A model generated the notes under the pieces. It had not been told where the DNA came from and ran no database searches. It was given only the letters and a program-made list of their open reading frames with translations. Position numbers and translations under genes: made by a program. Shown in pieces: positions 5,331 through 60,397 of a stretch of DNA of 63,361 nt (positions are counted from its first letter, which is position 1; the number at the start of each line of letters is the position of its first letter). Source of the DNA: an uncultured Acidobacteriia bacterium. GTDB taxonomy: Bacteria > Acidobacteriota > Terriglobia > Bryobacterales > Bryobacteraceae. The stretch spans positions 1 through 63,361 of the forward strand of contig CAIYDY010000309.1 in assembly GCA_903925015.1 (NCBI GenBank), given 5' to 3'.

Positions 5331-6578
5331 ATGCTGAAAAGTCCGAAAATCCTCGCAGCAGCCCTGGTTCTCTGTGGGCTCGAAGCCTGCAACCGCGCGC
5401 CGGAGCGGGATCCGGTCATCGGCGAGGCTTATGCGGGACCAGCGATCCTCAACCTGCACAAGGACATAGACCCCAAGTCGCCGCCGGCCGCCATCGCGCA
5501 CCATGGTGACCGGCTCGAAATCCTGGCCCAGCGCAGAAGATGGTACCGCGTCAGAACGCCGTCCGGAGCCGAGGGATGGACCGACGACCGCGAATTGCTC
5601 GATTCAGCGCAGATGAAGCGACTGGTCGAATTGCGGCAACAGACCGGTGCGCTGCCGTCCCAAGGCGTGGCGACGACATTCGGCACGCTCAACGTGCATA
5701 CGGAGGCCAACCGCTCCGCACCCAGCTTCCTGCAGGTGCGAGAGGGCGAGAAGGTCGATGTGATCCTCCACCGTGTTACCGGACGGGCTCCATTGCCAAA
5801 ACGGCAGATTCTGGCCCCCAGACCCAAGCCCGCGCGGAAATCCAAGGGCAAGGAGAAGAAACCCAACAAACCCAGCCCGGTCGATTTGCCGCCACCACCT
5901 TCCCCGCCCTCGCCTCCCACGGACTGGGTGGCGCTTTCCAAGGAAAGAAGTTTCTCCGGAGATGAGCTGCCATCCACCGTGCCAGCCGCCGCACTCGACG
6001 ACTGGACCTTGATCCGCGCGGCATCCGGCCAAACCGGCTGGGTCCTGACCAGCCGGCTCTACATGGCCATCCCGGACGCGGTTGCCCAATACGCCGAGGG
6101 GCACCGGATTACATCCTATTTCGTGATCGGAAAAACCAGCGATCACGGCGAAAGCCATGAAATTTGGCTCTGGACAACTGCGGAAACACTTGGGGAGGAC
6201 CACGATTTCGACGGTTTCCGCGTCTTTACGTGGAGCACCCGCAGGCACCGCTACGAGACGGCTTTCATCCAGCGCAGGCAGCGGGGCTTTTTCCCCGTGA
6301 CGGCAACCGACAGCGAATTTTCCGTTTGCCTGGAAAAGTCGGACGGCCTGCGAATTCGAAAGCGTTTCACTTTGACTGGAAATTCCGTTCGCGCCTCCGG
6401 TGAAGCACGCTGCGAAGTCCAGCAACAGGACGACGACCAAATACCGGATCTGCCGCGAAACCTGGTGGTCGGAACCGGGCACCCTCCACCTTCGAAGGAT
6501 GGCTTCCTGGCTGGCGTTTGGAAGAGGTTGAAGTCCATGGTGGGATGGAAGGATTCCACCGGCACCCCTGCCCGCTAA
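5331..6578 (+). CDS. SH3-domain lipoprotein
   Basis: A 415-residue lipoprotein. Starting at the ATG at 5331, the N-terminus is a lipoprotein signal with 'V-L-C-G-L-E-A-C-N' (lipidated Cys about residue 20). Residues about 30-85 form a bacterial SH3-like domain ('G-D-R-L-E-I-L-A-Q-R-R-R-W-Y-R-V-R-T-P-S-G-A-E-G-W'). A second SH3-like segment (about 108-150) is split by a proline- and lysine-rich linker (residues about 155-200) before it resumes with 'D-W-T-L-I-R-A-A-S-G-Q-T-G-W-V'. The C-terminal 180 residues look like a globular beta-rich domain I do not recognise. SH3 repeats in exported proteins usually bind cell-wall peptides or proteins. An in-frame start at 5151 would overlap the divergent gene and lacks a lipobox position. 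Confidence 0.8.
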   Translation: MLKSPKILAAALVLCGLEACNRAPERDPVIGEAYAGPAILNLHKDIDPKSPPAAIAHHGDRLEILAQRRRWYRVRTPSGAEGWTDDRELLDSAQMKRLVELRQQTGALPSQGVATTFGTLNVHTEANRSAPSFLQVREGEKVDVILHRVTGRAPLPKRQILAPRPKPARKSKGKEKKPNKPSPVDLPPPPSPPSPPTDWVALSKERSFSGDELPSTVPAAALDDWTLIRAASGQTGWVLTSRLYMAIPDAVAQYAEGHRITSYFVIGKTSDHGESHEIWLWTTAETLGEDHDFDGFRVFTWSTRRHRYETAFIQRRQRGFFPVTATDSEFSVCLEKSDGLRIRKRFTLTGNSVRASGEARCEVQQQDDDQIPDLPRNLVVGTGHPPPSKDGFLAGVWKRLKSMVGWKDSTGTPAR

Positions 6579-6587
6579 ACTGGTAGT

Positions 6588-9500
6588 TTGAGCAATCCGG
6601 CCCCCGAATCGGGCTCCGTAGCCGTAGTAGCCGAAAAGCCCTCGGTAGCCCGCGATATCGCCAAAGTCCTCGGAGCCTCCACCAAGGGCGATGGCTATCT
6701 GCATGGCAATGGATACATCGTCACGTGGGCCATCGGTCACCTGGCTTCACTGGCCCAGCCGCACGAAATCCGCCCCGAGTGGAAGTATTGGCGGCGGGAA
6801 ACACTCCCGATGTTGCCCGGCGCATGGCCTCTGGTGGTCTACGACAAGACAAAGGACCAGTTCGAGACTGTTCGTCGCATCCTCCAATCGCCCAAAGTCG
6901 CGCGGGTGATTTGCGCGACTGACGCCGGTCGCGAGGGCGAACTGATTTTCCGATACATCTATGAGGCTGCCGGATGTTCGAAACCTTTCTCGCGCCTCTG
7001 GATCTCCTCCCTGACGCCGGAGGCAATCCGGAAAGGCTTCGACGCCATCAAGCCGGGCCGCGACTACGACCCCCTCGCGGACGCGGCCCGCGGTCGCAGC
7101 AGGGCCGACTGGCTGGTCGGCATGAATCTGTCCCGAGCCTATGCACTGGCCTACGGCGGCGAGCTGAGCGTGGGACGGGTCCAGACCCCGACCCTGGCAA
7201 TGCTGGTCGAACGCGAGTTAGCAATTCGCGCATTTGTACCCGAGGATTATCTCGAAGTCCAGGCAAAATTTCGTCCCACAGGCTTCCCAAAAGCGGAGGA
7301 ATATTGGGGAACATGGTTCGCGGACCTTCAGGATATCCAAAAATCCACGCGTCTGCCTCCCGACGGTGACGAAGCCAAGAAAATTGTCGCGCGGGTCAAG
7401 TCCGGCCAAGCAGTCATCGAGTCGCTCAAGGCCGAGCAACAGCGGATGCCGGCTCCCGCGCTTTACGACCTGACCGAACTCCAGCGCCATGGAAACCGGC
7501 TATTCGGTTTCAGCGCCCAGCGCACACTGGACATCGCCCAGGAGCTCTACGAGCGTTATAAGCTCATCAGCTACCCCAGGACCGATAGTCGTCATCTCTC
7601 GTCCGACGTTGCAGCGACATTGCCGCAGGTGGTGGCCGCCATTTCGCCCAACTACAAGGACTCGATCGCACCCGAAACGGGCCACCGTCCGCTAGGGAAA
7701 AGATTCGTGGACGATGCCAAGGTCTCCGACCACCACGCCATCATCCCGACCAATGTTTCCGCCTCGCGCGCCAATCTGCCGCAGGACGAAGCGCGCATCT
7801 ACGACCTGATTTGCCGTCGGCTCCTCGCGGCGTGGCACCCGGAGCACATTTGGTCCATCACCACGGTGATCACAGCCGTTGTCAGCGGGTCGGTCACGGA
7901 CCGGTTCCAATCGCAGGGAAAAACCATCCAGCAAGTCGGGTGGAAAATTCTCGACATCCAGACGTCGAAGCCACAGGCAGCAAAGGGGTCCAAGAAAGGC
8001 AAAAAAGCTGCTGAGGGCGATGCCGGGGACGGTTCCGGAGACGACCAGGCACTACCCGCCAACTTGGAAACCGGCCAGCCCCAGGATGTGCTCGAAGCGC
8101 AGTCGGTGCGCAAAAAGACGCGGGCGCCGAAGCGTTTCAACGAGGCGTCCCTGCTGACTGCAATGGAAACGGCGGGCAAGACCCTCGACGAAAAGGAATT
8201 GTCCGATGCCATGAAGGACAACGGGCTCGGCACCCCCGCCACGCGGGCGGCAATCATAGAAACGCTGCTGAAACGCGAGTACATCAGTCGCGACGGCAAG
8301 AACTTGCTGGCGACCGACAAGGGCGTCCATTTGATCGAGGTCGTCCATCCCGAGGTCAAGAGTCCGGCTATGACCGGACAATGGGAGGCCCGATTGAAGC
8401 GGATTGAGCGCGGACAAGCCGAACTGGGCCCGTTTATCGGCGGCATTGAGGACTACGTGCGGGACGTTGTTGGAAAAGTGGGGCAGCTTCCCCTTGCGCC
8501 CCGCACGGGTGCACCGGTTCGGTCGGCGGAGTTGGTTGGAGCACCGGTCGGGGCCAACAAATCTGTGCGTGGCTCCGTTCCAAAGGAGCCACCTGCGGCC
8601 TCCGGGACACCGCCGCACGTACCAGCCCCGCTGGGAGGCACTTCGATGCCACCCCAGATCGTAGCCGAGCCCGGCGAGCTCTTGGAGGGATTGCTGCACA
8701 GGGCGTTCGGGTTTCCCAATTTCCGGGCCAACCAAGAGGAGGTCTGCCGAACGCTGATCGAAGGCCGGGACGTGGTGCTGGTGATGCCGACCGGAGCCGG
8801 AAAATCACTTTGTTACCAGTTGCCTGGACTTGCCCGCGGCGGTACAACCCTGGTGATCAGTCCGTTGATCGCGCTTATGGAGGACCAGTCGACCAGGTTG
8901 CGGCAATTGGGGTTCGCTGTGGCCTGCATCCATTCGGGCCGGGACAGGGCAGCATCGCGACAAGTGTGCGTCGATTACCTGAACGGCAACCTCCAGTTCC
9001 TTTTCATCGCGCCGGAGCGGCTCAGGGTGCCGGGTTTCATCGAAATGCTGGCACGCCGGAAGCCTTCCCTCGTCGCCGTCGACGAGGCGCACTGCATCTC
9101 CCAATGGGGGCACGATTTCCGTCCGGACTACAGGCTCCTCGGCGCGTCGCTCGAACAACTCAGGCCTGCCCCATGCGCGGCGCTGACGGCCACAGCCACC
9201 ACAACGGTACAACGCGACATCGAAGTCCAGTTGGGCCTCGATACTCCCGCAAGCTTCATCCATGGATTCCGTCGCTCCAACATCGCTATCGAGGTGGTGG
9301 AAACCAGTCCGTCCATGCGGCCTGGATTGGCTCAGGAACTTCTTCGGGACCCCGAGCGTCGGCCGGCCATTATCTACACCCCGAGCCGCAAACAGGCCGA
9401 AAGCGTTGCCGCACTCTTGAAAAATGACTACCCCGTCGCCGCGTACCATGCCGGCTTGGACGCCGAGCGACGCCAACGGGTCCAGACCGGATTCCTGACT

Positions 9501-10715
9501 GGGAAAATCGAAGTAATCGTCGCGACCATTGCGTTTGGCATGGGAATCGACAAGGCCGACATCCGATCAGTCATGCACACGGCGCTTCCCGGAAGCATTG
9601 AGGCCTACTACCAGGAAATAGGGCGCGCCGGACGCGACGGTCTCCCCAGCCGGGCCATCCTGATGCACTCCTACGCCGACCGGCATACGCACGATTTCTT
9701 TTTTGAGCGCGACTATCCGGAACCAAAGGTTCTCGATCAGATCTTTGGACGCCTGACTACGGAGGCGCGCCCGAGGCAATTGGTCGAAGCGGAGACCAAG
9801 CTCGGAGCCGACCTTTTTGAAAAGGCACTGGAAAAGCTTTGGATGCACAGCGGTGCCGTGATCGACTCGGCGGACAACATTACGCGCGGGACAACCGATT
9901 GGCGCGAGTCCTATTCCGCCCAAGGGGACCACAAGCAGCAACAGATCGAGCAAACAATCCGCTTTGCCCAAAGCAGCCAGTGCCGCATGTCCAGCTTGAT
10001 CCAGCACTTCGGGGATACGGCGGACAGCAGGAAGCCCTGCGGGATCTGCGACTTCTGTGCTCCACAGGCCTGCGCGGCGCAGTTGTTCCGGGAGGCTTCG
10101 GTACCGGAGGAGATTATTGCGCGCAAGGTGATCGAAGCGCTGGAGGGGACCCCGCGTTCCATGGGGCGGCTCCACGCGGACTTATGCGGGGCCAACGGAC
10201 TCTCGCGCGACGAGTTTGAGGAAGTGGTGGGTGCTTTGGCCAGAGCAGGCCTCGTCAGACTGACTGATGCCGTGTTTGAGAAGGACGGTAAACAGATACC
10301 GTACCGGAAGGCCTCGCTCACGCGGGATGCGGAATACCTTGACGCCGAAGGTACCTTGGGCCTCACGATCCGTGAGGTCGCACCAGCGCCCAAAACAGGA
10401 CGGAAGAGCGCAAAGGCGGGTACCAAGCCCCATCGGAAGACCAAGCCGGCGGGGAAAATAGTCGAACTACCCGAAGCTGCGGTGGAAAGGGTATTGGGAC
10501 CGGTGGAATTGGCGCTGCGGGAGTGGCGTCGGTCCGTCGCCCAGAAGAAGGGGGTACCCGCTTTCCGGATCATGACAGACCGGGTGCTGACCGCGATCGC
10601 GGAGGAGCAGCCTCGAACTGCAGCGGACCTGCTTTCGATTCCCGGTATCGGGATCAAGGCAGTGGAGCAATTCGGCGCACAAATCTACAGGATCCTGAAC
10701 GAGACCCTGGAATAA
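6588..10715 (+). CDS. Natural fusion of DNA topoisomerase III and RecQ helicase
   Basis: A single 1375-residue frame with two complete enzymes. Residues about 10-632 are a type IA topoisomerase of the TopB class: TOPRIM with 'A-E-K-P-S-V-A-R' and 'T-D-A-G-R-E-G-E', and the catalytic tyrosine about 329 in SYPRTDSRHLSS. A Pro/Ala-rich linker (about 633-688) leads to RecQ: Walker A 'P-T-G-A-G-K-S' (Lys about 739), DEAH box about 832, 'T-A-T-A-T', the helicase motif VI 'Q-E-I-G-R-A-G-R-D-G', then the zinc site with Cys about 1132, 1151, 1154 and 1157. A basic linker and an HRDC domain (about 1306-1375) finish the protein. No stop or frameshift separates the modules. RecQ and Topo III are separate proteins that cooperate in decatenation and double-Holliday-junction dissolution in bacteria and eukaryotes; here they are covalently joined. 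The start is TTG at 6588, 9 bp after the preceding gene. Confidence 0.93.
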   Translation: MSNPAPESGSVAVVAEKPSVARDIAKVLGASTKGDGYLHGNGYIVTWAIGHLASLAQPHEIRPEWKYWRRETLPMLPGAWPLVVYDKTKDQFETVRRILQSPKVARVICATDAGREGELIFRYIYEAAGCSKPFSRLWISSLTPEAIRKGFDAIKPGRDYDPLADAARGRSRADWLVGMNLSRAYALAYGGELSVGRVQTPTLAMLVERELAIRAFVPEDYLEVQAKFRPTGFPKAEEYWGTWFADLQDIQKSTRLPPDGDEAKKIVARVKSGQAVIESLKAEQQRMPAPALYDLTELQRHGNRLFGFSAQRTLDIAQELYERYKLISYPRTDSRHLSSDVAATLPQVVAAISPNYKDSIAPETGHRPLGKRFVDDAKVSDHHAIIPTNVSASRANLPQDEARIYDLICRRLLAAWHPEHIWSITTVITAVVSGSVTDRFQSQGKTIQQVGWKILDIQTSKPQAAKGSKKGKKAAEGDAGDGSGDDQALPANLETGQPQDVLEAQSVRKKTRAPKRFNEASLLTAMETAGKTLDEKELSDAMKDNGLGTPATRAAIIETLLKREYISRDGKNLLATDKGVHLIEVVHPEVKSPAMTGQWEARLKRIERGQAELGPFIGGIEDYVRDVVGKVGQLPLAPRTGAPVRSAELVGAPVGANKSVRGSVPKEPPAASGTPPHVPAPLGGTSMPPQIVAEPGELLEGLLHRAFGFPNFRANQEEVCRTLIEGRDVVLVMPTGAGKSLCYQLPGLARGGTTLVISPLIALMEDQSTRLRQLGFAVACIHSGRDRAASRQVCVDYLNGNLQFLFIAPERLRVPGFIEMLARRKPSLVAVDEAHCISQWGHDFRPDYRLLGASLEQLRPAPCAALTATATTTVQRDIEVQLGLDTPASFIHGFRRSNIAIEVVETSPSMRPGLAQELLRDPERRPAIIYTPSRKQAESVAALLKNDYPVAAYHAGLDAERRQRVQTGFLTGKIEVIVATIAFGMGIDKADIRSVMHTALPGSIEAYYQEIGRAGRDGLPSRAILMHSYADRHTHDFFFERDYPEPKVLDQIFGRLTTEARPRQLVEAETKLGADLFEKALEKLWMHSGAVIDSADNITRGTTDWRESYSAQGDHKQQQIEQTIRFAQSSQCRMSSLIQHFGDTADSRKPCGICDFCAPQACAAQLFREASVPEEIIARKVIEALEGTPRSMGRLHADLCGANGLSRDEFEEVVGALARAGLVRLTDAVFEKDGKQIPYRKASLTRDAEYLDAEGTLGLTIREVAPAPKTGRKSAKAGTKPHRKTKPAGKIVELPEAAVERVLGPVELALREWRRSVAQKKGVPAFRIMTDRVLTAIAEEQPRTAADLLSIPGIGIKAVEQFGAQIYRILNETLE

Positions 10716-56554: not shown

Positions 56555-58843
56555 TTGACCCAAACAATCCCCATACGCAAGCTAGCTTTCCTGGGCAACC
56601 ATATGCCCCGCAAGTGCGGAATCGCAACATTCATGTCGGATATTCTGGCTGCCGTTGCAGACTCGCATCCGAAAACCCAATGCCTCGCGGTTTCGGTGAA
56701 TGACATACCAGGTGGTTACGACTACCCCGATGTGGTCCGGTGCGAGATCGAGGAACAGAATTTATCGTCATACCTCCAGGCTGCCGACTTCCTCAATAAC
56801 AACAACGTGGAAGTGGTTTGCCTGCAGCACGAGTTCGGCATTTTCGGCGGCGTGGCGGGCGGGCATGTGCTGGCATTGCTCCGCGAGTTGAAAATGCCGG
56901 TTGTGACAACGCTCCATACGGTCCTGCTGAACCCCTCCCCGGACCAGCGGCGCCTGATGGACGGTGTCGTAGGCCTCTCCAGCCGGGTGATCGTGATGGC
57001 GGCCCGCGGTCAAAGGATGCTGCAGGAGATTTACAACGTACCGGCGGAAAAAATCGACCTGATCCCGCACGGGATTCCCGACGGCGAGTTTGTCGATCCC
57101 GAGAGCTTGAAGGCGCAATTCGGCGTCGACGGCCGGACCGTTCTTCTTACCTTCGGACTGCTTTCCCCGAACAAGGGCATCGAATACGTCCTCAACGCCC
57201 TGCCGCGGATTGTGGCGGAGTTTCCAGACGTCGTGTACATCGTGCTCGGAGCCACGCATCCCAACGAATTGAGGGAACACGGCGAGGCCTACCGGCTAAG
57301 CCTGGAGATCCTGGCAAAGAAGAATGGTGTGGCCAGAAACGTCATCTTCCACAACCACTTTGTGGACTTGGAAACATTGACGGAGTTCATCGGCGCCGCA
57401 GACCTCTACATCACGCCCTATCTGAATGAGGCGCAAATCACGTCCGGGACGCTGGCATACGCCTTCGGATCCGGCAAAGTGGTTGTTTCGACTCCCTATT
57501 GGCACGCGGCTGAGTTGCTGCACGATGGGCTCGGCGTACTGGTGCCGTTCGCCGACGCTGGAGCCATGGCGCGCGAAGTGGTGGCATTGTTGGGCGACGA
57601 AACCCGTCGGCAGTCGATGCGGGAGACTGCATGGCGCGTCGGACGCCGGATGGTGTGGAGCAACGTCGCCCGGATGTACATGGATTCGTTCGAACGTTCG
57701 CGCGTGGACAAGCTGCCGCGGACTCCGCAGCGATCAATTGTTTCCAAGATGCTCGACCGCAAGCCGCGCGAACTTCCAGCCCTGAATCTGAGTCACTTGG
57801 GCGTGATGACCGATTCGACCGGAATGTTCCAGCATGCCAGCTACAGCGTTCCGAATTTCGCCGAGGGCTACTGCGTGGACGACAACGCAAGGGCATTCAT
57901 CCTTTCGGCCCTCCTGGGGGAACTGGGCGGGAAAACCGAGCGCGTCCGCACCCTGGCCAGCACCACCATGGCCTTCCTGCACCACTCGTGGAACCCGCCA
58001 CTGGGGAGATTCCGCAACTTCATGGGCTTCGACCGCTGCTGGCTGGACGACCATGGATCGGAAGACTCCCACGGACGCGCTTTGTGGGCTGCGGGAATGG
58101 CCGTCGGACGATCCCAATTCCCAGGTATCCAGATGGTGGGCGCCCAACTTTTCGCGGCGGGACTGCCGGCGCTCAGGACATTCACATCGCCCCGCGCGAT
58201 GGCCTTTGGGCTGCTCGGCATCCATGAATTCCTTCGGCGTCCCATCGGGGACGCAGCCGCCGTCCAGACCAGGGCCTCGCTGATGGATCGCCTGATGGAC
58301 CTTTTCGCAAGATCCGCCCAGCCCGATTGGGACTGGTTCGAGGACTCCCTCTCGTATGACAACGCCAAGCTGGCGCATGCCCTGATCCAATCCGGCCACG
58401 CTTCCGGCACCCCCGGTGTGGTCGGCTGCGGCCTGCAGGCGCTTCGTTGGCTGACTGACATCCAGACGTCGGAGCGCGGCCATTTCCGACCAATTGGAAG
58501 CAACGGCTTCCACGCACGCGGAGGAACGCGGGCACATTTCGACCAGCAGCCTGTGGAGGCGCACGCCACGGTTTCAGCCTGCTTGGAAGCTTGGCGCGTC
58601 ACAAAGGATGTCCGGTGGTACGAGAAGGCCCAAAGCGCGTTCGACTGGTTCCTCGGCTGGAATGACGTCGGACTCGAACTTTACTGCCCACAAACCGGTG
58701 GCTGCCGCGACGGACTCCATGCCGACCGCGTCAACGAGAACCAAGGTGCCGAATCCACCCTGGCCTTCCTGATGTCGCTGGCGGAAATGCGCCAATCCCA
58801 GAACGTGCTTACGAGTTTCAACGAACCGAACGCCGGAGACTAA
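56555..58843 (+). CDS. GT4-family glycosyltransferase with helical C-terminal domain
   Basis: A 762-residue two-domain protein. Residues about 8-390 are a GT-B glycosyltransferase: 'F-L-G-N-H-M-P-R-K-C-G-I-A-T-F' at the N-terminus, 'L-T-F-G-L-L-S-P-N-K-G-I-E-Y-V' near 198, and the E-x7-E region 'N-E-A-Q-I-T-S-G-T-L-A-Y-A-F-G' near 290. Residues about 420-750 form a separate mostly helical domain with 'E-G-Y-C-V-D-D-N-A-R-A' and 'W-N-D-V-G', reminiscent of (alpha/alpha)6 barrels. It is followed after 6 bp by a GH130-type gene, so the pair probably handles one mannose-like glycan. The start is TTG at 56555 with AAGGA 5 bases before. Confidence 0.85.
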   Translation: MTQTIPIRKLAFLGNHMPRKCGIATFMSDILAAVADSHPKTQCLAVSVNDIPGGYDYPDVVRCEIEEQNLSSYLQAADFLNNNNVEVVCLQHEFGIFGGVAGGHVLALLRELKMPVVTTLHTVLLNPSPDQRRLMDGVVGLSSRVIVMAARGQRMLQEIYNVPAEKIDLIPHGIPDGEFVDPESLKAQFGVDGRTVLLTFGLLSPNKGIEYVLNALPRIVAEFPDVVYIVLGATHPNELREHGEAYRLSLEILAKKNGVARNVIFHNHFVDLETLTEFIGAADLYITPYLNEAQITSGTLAYAFGSGKVVVSTPYWHAAELLHDGLGVLVPFADAGAMAREVVALLGDETRRQSMRETAWRVGRRMVWSNVARMYMDSFERSRVDKLPRTPQRSIVSKMLDRKPRELPALNLSHLGVMTDSTGMFQHASYSVPNFAEGYCVDDNARAFILSALLGELGGKTERVRTLASTTMAFLHHSWNPPLGRFRNFMGFDRCWLDDHGSEDSHGRALWAAGMAVGRSQFPGIQMVGAQLFAAGLPALRTFTSPRAMAFGLLGIHEFLRRPIGDAAAVQTRASLMDRLMDLFARSAQPDWDWFEDSLSYDNAKLAHALIQSGHASGTPGVVGCGLQALRWLTDIQTSERGHFRPIGSNGFHARGGTRAHFDQQPVEAHATVSACLEAWRVTKDVRWYEKAQSAFDWFLGWNDVGLELYCPQTGGCRDGLHADRVNENQGAESTLAFLMSLAEMRQSQNVLTSFNEPNAGD

Positions 58844-58849
58844 CCACCA

Positions 58850-60397
58850 ATGCCAATCAAAGTTACCCGCGCAGCCACCATCCTGCAGCCCGACCAAACG
58901 CGCGTGCTGCTGCGCCCCTTCATCCCTGGGGGGCCGCAGCGGTTCGCAGCGATCATCGCCAGGGTGATGGCGCTGCCCGAGGACCAGGTCGGGCCCTTGC
59001 TGGAAGGCGTTTCCGAGGAGTTCTCGCGCCGCCACGACAACATCCATGCTCTTTTCCTGGAGCGCTTTGAGGAGGTGCGCGGCCATATGTCCGGGGACGA
59101 AGAGCTTTCCGAGCAGCGCCGAATGCTGATCGGATCGTTCTTCCTCGCCGAATACTCGCTCGAGTCGGCCGCCCTGTTCAACCCGTCGATGGTGCCGCAC
59201 CCCGACCAGACCGGCTTGGCCGAAGGTGCGGTCCGCTTTGTCCTAAGCCTCCGGGCAACGGGCGAGGGACACATCTCCTCCATTACCTTCCGCACCGGGA
59301 TTGTGCACGGTGACAACTCGATCGAGATCCTGCCGCCCAAGGGCTTTCTCATCGAGCCGCGGCAAATCCCGAACCCAGTCTATAAAAAGGAGCTTTTCGA
59401 GCGCCGGCTGGGGGAGTTGGGGCTCGGGGGCGAACTCACGCTAAGGGTGATGAACCGGCTCCCGGAATCATTCACGCTTACCGAACTCCGTGTGGCCCTG
59501 AAAGCCGAACGCCTCAATTCACCCGAGGGGATGAAGCGCGACGACCAGGAGGCATCGCACCGGATCTGGGCCCTTGCGCGGTCAAACTACGAGGTCCAGT
59601 TCCAGCCGGACCAGGAATTGTCGCAGCGGATCCTTTTCCCCTCGACTCCCGCGCAGCGCAATGGCATCGAGGACGCACGGTTTTGCTATTTCCACGATGA
59701 CGACGGGACGTCGCTCTACTACGCCACATTCACGGCCTACGACGGTGCCCGCATTGTCCCCGAACTACTGGAGACTTCCGATTTCGTCCGTTTCCGATTC
59801 CGCACGTTGAATGGCCCGGCGTCTGAAAATAAGGGGATGGCAGTCTTTCCCAAGAAAATTGGAGGGCGATACGCCATGCTCTCCAGGCAGGACGACGAGA
59901 GCATCTACCTGATGTATTCCGAAAACATCCATTTCTGGAACGAACGGCAACTCCTGCTGAAGCCCGTTTTTCCCTGGGAGCTGATCAAAATCGGCAACTG
60001 CGGCTCGCCGATAGAGACTGATGCCGGATGGTTGGTGGTCAGCCATGGAGTTGGCCCGCTACGCAAGTACTGCATCGGAGCGTTCCTGCTGAACCGCGAC
60101 GATCCGTCGAAGGTCATTGGACGGTTGCGGCAGCCCCTGCTCAAGCCCAATCCTAGCGAGCGCGAAGGGTACGTCCCCAATGTTGTCTATAGCTGCGGCG
60201 CGATGCTGCACCAAGGCCAGCTGGTGATTCCGTATGGCTTGGCCGACCACGCCACCGGTTTTGCGACGGTCTCCCTGGCAGAGGTGCTGGCCGCGATGGA
60301 GCCGACAAAACCTTGCGGCACGCCCGGCGACGATTGTCCGCCGATTGTTTCCGGCGCTTGGGTTTCTAGCTCCGCCGCTCCACAATTACCAGCGTGA
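58850..60397 (+). CDS. GH130-family glycoside phosphorylase/hydrolase-like protein
   Basis: A 515-residue protein. The N-terminal 190 residues are a helical extension; a five-bladed propeller of the GH130 type follows, with 'G-I-E-D-A-R-F' near residue 272 (the Asp is the general acid in GH130), 'Y-Y-A-T-F-T-A-Y-D-G', 'K-G-M-A-V-F-P-K-K-I-G-G-R-Y-A-M-L-S-R', and 'E-G-Y-V-P-N-V-V-Y-S-C-G'. GH130 enzymes act by phosphorolysis or hydrolysis of beta-mannosides; subfamily not determined. It is only 6 bp after the GT4 gene. Its 3' end overlaps the convergent response-regulator gene by 32 bp. Confidence 0.86.
   Translation: MPIKVTRAATILQPDQTRVLLRPFIPGGPQRFAAIIARVMALPEDQVGPLLEGVSEEFSRRHDNIHALFLERFEEVRGHMSGDEELSEQRRMLIGSFFLAEYSLESAALFNPSMVPHPDQTGLAEGAVRFVLSLRATGEGHISSITFRTGIVHGDNSIEILPPKGFLIEPRQIPNPVYKKELFERRLGELGLGGELTLRVMNRLPESFTLTELRVALKAERLNSPEGMKRDDQEASHRIWALARSNYEVQFQPDQELSQRILFPSTPAQRNGIEDARFCYFHDDDGTSLYYATFTAYDGARIVPELLETSDFVRFRFRTLNGPASENKGMAVFPKKIGGRYAMLSRQDDESIYLMYSENIHFWNERQLLLKPVFPWELIKIGNCGSPIETDAGWLVVSHGVGPLRKYCIGAFLLNRDDPSKVIGRLRQPLLKPNPSEREGYVPNVVYSCGAMLHQGQLVIPYGLADHATGFATVSLAEVLAAMEPTKPCGTPGDDCPPIVSGAWVSSSAAPQLPA

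Follow-up and report, generated by a model that had tools for sequence, protein, structure and literature searches.

Helicases of the RecQ family unwind DNA in the 3'-5' direction, and topoisomerase III (Topo III) requires single strands for cleavage. A division of labour between RecQ-family helicases and Topo III is described in the available text of PMC8191776. Eukaryotes join the two in the BLM/Sgs1-Topo III-RMI dissolvasome, where Top3 is bound by the N terminus of Sgs1 (PMC3905885, accessible part). For the separate TopB and RecQ of Escherichia coli the literature disagrees: a RecQ-Topo III complex is spoken of in that same text of PMC8191776, whereas the available part of PMC13244152 states that an interaction was not observed, though RecQ can modulate Topo III in vitro, and that earlier genetic evidence for it was not substantiated. 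Here we describe a bacterial gene that encodes both enzymes in one polypeptide. It lies on contig CAIYDY010000309.1 of an uncultured Acidobacteriia bacterium, in a stretch of 63,361 nucleotides that was analysed as a whole and is called the window throughout; coordinates refer to its forward strand unless a locus handle precedes them.

A single frame of 1375 codons without an internal stop spans positions 6588..10715 (1378 amino acids when measured from stop to stop). Open reading frame (ORF), Pfam, and NCBIfam evidence marks it as the coding sequence of the fusion, with a TTG start. Pfam places Toprim, Topoisom_bac, DEAD, Helicase_C, RecQ_Zn_bind, and HRDC domains in this order, every one above its cut-off. 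By this domain content the predicted polypeptide is a complete Topo III, a Pro/Ala-rich linker, and a complete RecQ. A first-pass annotation of the DNA had claimed this anatomy: an uninterrupted 1375-codon frame, a full type IA topoisomerase with a TOPRIM domain and Tyr329, a Pro/Ala linker, and a full RecQ with zinc-binding and HRDC domains. The frame and the linker stand as it described them; the topoisomerase is confirmed by Pfam, by the NCBIfam Topo III cut-offs, and by alignment, and the helicase by Pfam and the recQ_fam score. Its further claim of fixed stoichiometry and tethering follows from the anatomy of a single polypeptide.

The N-terminal half exceeds the NCBIfam cut-offs for Topo III (PRK07726, 678 against 597 bits; topB, 573 against 515.75 bits). 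Its Toprim domain (Pfam; residues 12-141, 6621..7010) carries E16/K17 and D112-x-G114-x-E116, and the type IA topoisomerase core (PF01131, 363.7 bits) covers residues 160-613 (7065..8426). The middle position of the Toprim DxDxE motif is Gly in the fusion (DxGxE), whereas it is Asp in E. coli Topo III. Topo III chains of solved structures align over residues 14-617 of the fusion; the PDB entries aligned with the two halves are presumably E. coli TopB and E. coli RecQ. In the alignment, the catalytic Tyr329 (codon at 7572..7574) pairs with Y328 of E. coli Topo III, the E. coli numbering having been checked on the K-12 gene. A stretch similar in length to the E. coli decatenation loop aligns at the corresponding place, located by what we take to be the position of that loop in E. 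coli Topo III. For conservation we compared 66 distinct complete fusions, which are ORFs picked for strong matches to both halves, with two decayed copies left out. E16, K17, D112, G114, E116, and Y329 are invariant in 66/66. Profile cut-offs and catalytic residues assign the N-terminal half to DNA topoisomerase III (TopB).

The Pro/Ala-rich linker between the halves (residues ~634-699, 8487..8684) has no domain match. Across the 66 fusions it measures 21-151 residues, with a median of 57, and is 28-74% Pro/Ala/Ser/Thr. Because its length varies this much, the linker is suggested to be a flexible tether.

The RecQ half begins with helicase lobe 1 (residues 714-875, 8727..9212; Pfam DEAD and solved RecQ chains), which contains the Walker A motif GAGKS, with Lys739 encoded at 8802..8804, and DEAH. 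Lobe 2 (Pfam Helicase_C; residues 917-1018, 9336..9641) is followed by the zinc-binding domain (Pfam RecQ_Zn_bind; residues 1110-1157, 9915..10058), with C1132/C1151/C1154/C1157, and the HRDC domain (Pfam, 65.9 bits) lies at residues 1309-1369 (10512..10694). A Pfam RQC match to a winged helix was not found; profile-profile alignment places a winged-helix (RQC-like) region at residues ~1158-1245 (10059..10322), with approximate limits. A profile built from the subfamily of this RecQ half can be aligned with canonical RecQs across the zinc site, winged helix, and HRDC (E 1.3e-41), leaving ~55 residues ahead of the zinc site unaligned. The fusion exceeds the recQ_fam cut-off of NCBIfam (388 against 219.8 bits) and does not reach the strict equivalogs, such as TIGR01389 recQ (478.5 against 640.2 bits); in a tree, its RecQ half groups separately from canonical RecQs, in a subfamily of its own. 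Among solved structures, bacterial RecQ chains match the RecQ half best, followed by eukaryotic RecQ-family helicases including BLM. K739, DEAH, and the four zinc Cys are invariant in 66/66 fusions; the Walker A, DEAH, and QExGRAGRDG motifs are invariant or nearly so, and HRDC is present in 64/66 (none in L092 and L192). Helicase motifs, zinc-binding domain, HRDC, and, by profile alignment, a winged helix assign the C-terminal half to the RecQ family.

The fusion recurs widely. A genome was counted as fused when both halves, or parts of both at contig ends, lie in one frame; the taxon names of the genomes searched (class, order, phylum) were inferred from named relatives. By this count the window's order has the fusion in no fewer than 80 of the 200 genomes searched, and the phylum to which a Myxococcaceae genome belongs has it in no fewer than 79 of 195. 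When named genomes were scanned, 13 loci among the best 80 of 592 stretches carried both halves in one frame; these belong to Bryobacterales and other Acidobacteria, to Myxococcales/Myxococcaceae, and to one Bdellovibrionales genome. Within the window's own or same genus, 12 of the 15 genomes listed are fused; the three that are not fused have best E-values of only 1e-76 to 1e-88, and 17 genomes of the search without a match are outside this listing. A sample across the window's phylum gave 10 fused among the 396 matches listed, with two candidates scored per genome. The fusion is a conserved architecture, not a single-genome oddity; it is common in some groups and patchy elsewhere.

That the window's fusion is an assembly chimera or conceals a missed stop has a negligible chance of being right. 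The source assembly is fragmented (459 contigs), which speaks for such an error. In at least 159 genomes from the two groups, however, both halves share a frame, and among these are fusions on single contigs of 9-13 Mb (L119, L121, L126, L127, and L190). We rejected assembly error on these grounds. The first-pass annotation had raised a missed stop or frameshift between residues 632 and 690; this is excluded for practical purposes, because many assemblies made independently show the frame equally unbroken. Of four seemingly split genes inspected, those of G740 and G515 are cut by the contig end, and that of G607 has unknown bases and low-complexity sequence at the join. In the fourth, from G725 (L200 2157-5998, reverse complement), Topo III and RecQ occupy different frames, which overlap in the linker region; this frame change is either a sequencing error or real. 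One genome of the Myxococcaceae search has a Topo III half followed by a Ser-rich repetitive stretch up to the contig end (L203 1857-4499, reverse complement).

The window's genome (6.33 Mb, 97.35% complete) also encodes RecG and RuvC. The one type IA topoisomerase match besides the fusion is TopA (835 amino acids), which scores 840.9 against 456.4 bits on topA_bact and 211 bits on topB, below the cut-off of 515.75. The fusion is the sole RecQ above the family cut-off. No second Topo III or RecQ was found in the genome, an absence that is not absolute because the genome is only 97.35% complete. The check for a separate topB or recQ that the first-pass annotation had proposed thus turned up neither gene, the other type IA enzyme being TopA.

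We compared phylogenies of the two halves. Group labels in the trees name the search that found a row; L191, for example, is labelled fusAcid yet belongs to the window's family. In the tree of the Topo half, a quick tree with long outgroup branches, 46 fused, truncated, or contig-edge rows are split from 12 standalone TopBs with a support of 100 in the Shimodaira-Hasegawa-like approximate likelihood ratio test (SH-aLRT). In the RecQ tree, 20 standalone RecQs are placed among the fused RecQs, and a clade of fused RecQs alone was rejected by the approximately unbiased test (p-AU 6e-31; 27 fused, 15 standalone, and 5 outgroup rows). The trees of both halves agree for 65 fusions (Mantel r 0.87; maximum 0.18 in 2000 shuffles), with 32 of 62 splits in common. 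By these trees, the halves share one history. In the simplest account, the halves would have been joined once and the Topo III half then lost repeatedly, perhaps with whole-gene transfer between phyla. Repeated gain of the fusion is not favoured, the Topo halves lying on one side of the branch with SH-aLRT 100 and the halves agreeing; several fusions from one TopB lineage are, strictly speaking, conceivable. The RecQ of the fusion kind may originally have been separate, since the RecQ tree has standalone L186 and L185 as well as fused L194 closest to its root. A mobile or phage origin was rejected: neither the 89 matching phage or plasmid records nor the 5000 best-scoring of a second search include one that spans 80% of the protein at a single place. 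The helicase part alone is matched by 35 viral contigs.

Domains and conserved catalytic residues show two complete enzymes. We consider it probable that the fusion is a bifunctional enzyme in which unwinding is coupled to strand passage, with intermediates of recombination or late replication as substrates; the coupling and the substrate are the inferred part. In favour, besides the domains and residues, are that no second Topo III or RecQ was found in the genome, that many genomes have the fusion, that its halves share one history, that its neighbours are mostly not conserved in the flanks compared, and that recQ and topB are adjacent in a Listeria record. The C-terminal RecQ motor would open the duplex or drive branch migration and so present single-stranded DNA. 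The N-terminal Topo III, kept near by the Pro/Ala linker, would then cut one strand via Tyr329, pass another strand or duplex through, and reseal. Acting as a pair, the halves might dissolve double Holliday junctions and hemicatenanes and unlink converging forks, and one protein would do what BLM/Sgs1-Topo III does as a complex. Because the same joined gene is found in many acidobacteria and myxobacteria, it suggests one shared job for both enzymes in these bacteria. Somewhat more daring, and put forward only tentatively, is a wider proposal: that the fusion is old and of single origin, an obligatory one-protein dissolvasome and the only or main Topo III of some Acidobacteriota and Myxococcota, whose breakdown shows how the coupling is given up. 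If this is true, the steps of breakdown are loss of the topoisomerase and decay of the motor to a pseudo-helicase lobe.

Some observations weigh against a coupled enzyme, and several of them are what one would expect if the linker served co-expression only, giving equal amounts and joint recruitment of two enzymes that act independently. We searched 20 genomes that have a standalone RecQ of the fusion kind for a Topo III (14 from family f2, which falls in the window's class, 3 from family f47, and 3 from the Myxococcaceae search). In f2, 12 of the 14 have a TopA-sized match only and no Topo III; because the RecQ stands alone in these genomes, it must have work without Topo III. A TopA-sized match is likewise all that 3/3 genomes of f47 and two of the three from the Myxococcaceae search have, the third (G605) having a second match of 621 amino acids. 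Two f2 genomes outside this sample (G194 and G241) pair the standalone RecQ with a separate TopB (43-45% identical) that falls outside the fused clade (L176 and L177) and is of another lineage. A tblastn search next to 30 standalone RecQ loci turned up no remnant of Topo III. The other two of the 14 f2 genomes, G233 and G273, join a whole Topo III to RecQ lobe 1 only (L201 2028-4721 and L202 1928-4552) and have a separate full RecQ elsewhere. This lobe, in which Walker A reads DGxGKT and DEAH has become EEAE, is decayed and possibly a pseudo-helicase module; because these genomes keep Topo III with such a lobe, a tethered motor can be lost. The fusion is also patchy even inside a genus (the 12 of 15 noted above), and neither the length of the linker (21-151 residues) nor its sequence is conserved. 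Co-expression alone would, however, be served by neighbouring genes, as in Listeria, and it does not account for the persistence of the fusion in different phyla with both sets of catalytic residues intact. We regard it as the less probable explanation, although a serious one. A further point against comes from E. coli, where the available part of PMC13244152 reports RecG, not RecQ, as the partner of Topo III in its assays. The first-pass annotation had built on RecQ-Topo III cooperation in E. coli; that premise is weaker than it assumed in the light of this source, and what stands of it is the complex named in the accessible text of PMC8191776. The fusion suggests that other bacteria differ from E. 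coli in their Topo III partner.

The same biochemistry could act on another substrate: instead of recombination, the main role could be replication termination or precatenane removal where forks converge. According to the available part of PMC7614492, Topo III of E. coli cooperates with RecQ and SSB at stalled converging forks, reportedly also the subject of Suski and Marians (2008). Nothing in the sequence or neighbourhood of the fusion favours this role in particular, and we think it improbable. Still further from our expectation, and very improbable, is an ATP-driven supercoiling machine like reverse gyrase. Such a machine likewise has a type IA topoisomerase and a superfamily 2 (SF2) motor in one chain, and there is a weak rgy match; this reaches 105.5 bits against a cut-off of 471.7, and the reversed order, the RecQ with zinc site and HRDC, the Topo III half, and the variable linker all argue the other way. 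A bifunctional enzyme that couples the two activities is the reading we retain.

The start of the gene shows a further regularity. The hexamer TAAACT, six bases, and the TTG start occupy window positions 6576-6590. Of the 14 closest fused loci, among them the window's, 12 have a TTG start with TANNNT 6-7 bases upstream; TANNNT matches occur in 2 of the 52 remaining fused rows (L164 and L174), each before ATG. With its -10-like hexamer, the pattern looks as if a leaderless mRNA began at the TTG. Nearby genes encode a bacterial SH3-domain protein (upstream) and a member of the acetamidase/formamidase family; the product of a downstream gene has GNVR and AAA domains and is of the exopolysaccharide-kinase type (GumC-like). 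Six window neighbours were compared with the flanks of the other loci, which reach 1.5 kb at most loci and about 6 kb at a few. The GumC-like gene recurs in L146, the nearest relative, and a Cys/Met-metabolism gene has a weak match (E 1.6e-11) beside L009; none of the other fused loci showed the SH3-domain gene in these flanks. A conserved operon was rejected, the neighbourhood being mostly not kept in the flanks compared. Elsewhere, a Listeria record (L195 3983-7932) has recQ and topB next to each other on one strand, separated by 23 bases, and two Bacteroidales loci (L027 and L028) have topB and recQ ORFs on one strand, about 2.6-2.7 kb apart. ARAGORN called a 94-base tRNA-Ala (CGC) at window positions 58810-58903, which overlaps the end of a 774-codon ORF and is probably a false call.

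A conserved natural fusion is independent evolutionary evidence for a RecQ-Topo III partnership in at least two phyla. A single protein lets dissolution be tested directly, without assembling a complex, and its naturally occurring variants, RecQ on its own and Topo III joined to a decayed lobe, are built-in comparisons. The first-pass annotation had asked whether this architecture is already well described. We found no natural bacterial Topo III-RecQ fusion described in the open-access papers searched, which leave out most subscription papers and all bioRxiv preprints, and domain databases were not searched. The partners and domains are known, and the natural covalent form is the part that appears to be new; domain databases may already list the architecture.

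Compared with the separate TopB and RecQ of bacteria, each half of the fusion scores above a family cut-off for Topo III or RecQ, E. coli TopB aligning with residues 14-617 and E. coli RecQ over the helicase core and zinc site; the difference is that here the two are one polypeptide, with Topo III first. The fusion shares with the BLM/Sgs1-Topo III-RMI dissolvasome the combination of a RecQ-family helicase with Topo III. The end of Sgs1 that binds Top3 is the N terminus, and the same end carries Topo III in the fusion; the fusion differs in being covalent. Reverse gyrase resembles it in having a type IA topoisomerase and an SF2 motor in one chain. In reverse gyrase, however, the helicase-like domain precedes the topoisomerase, whereas the order is opposite in the fusion, as the first-pass annotation had pointed out and the Pfam domain order confirms, together with its naming of the helicase as RecQ. 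The fusion differs further by the zinc site and HRDC of its RecQ and by its Topo III half, and with its reversed order and an rgy score below the cut-off it does not belong to the reverse gyrases. Artificial fusions of yeast Top3 and Sgs1 were reportedly engineered by Bennett and Wang in 2001. These combine the same two kinds of enzyme in a laboratory construct, whereas the fusion described here is natural and widespread.

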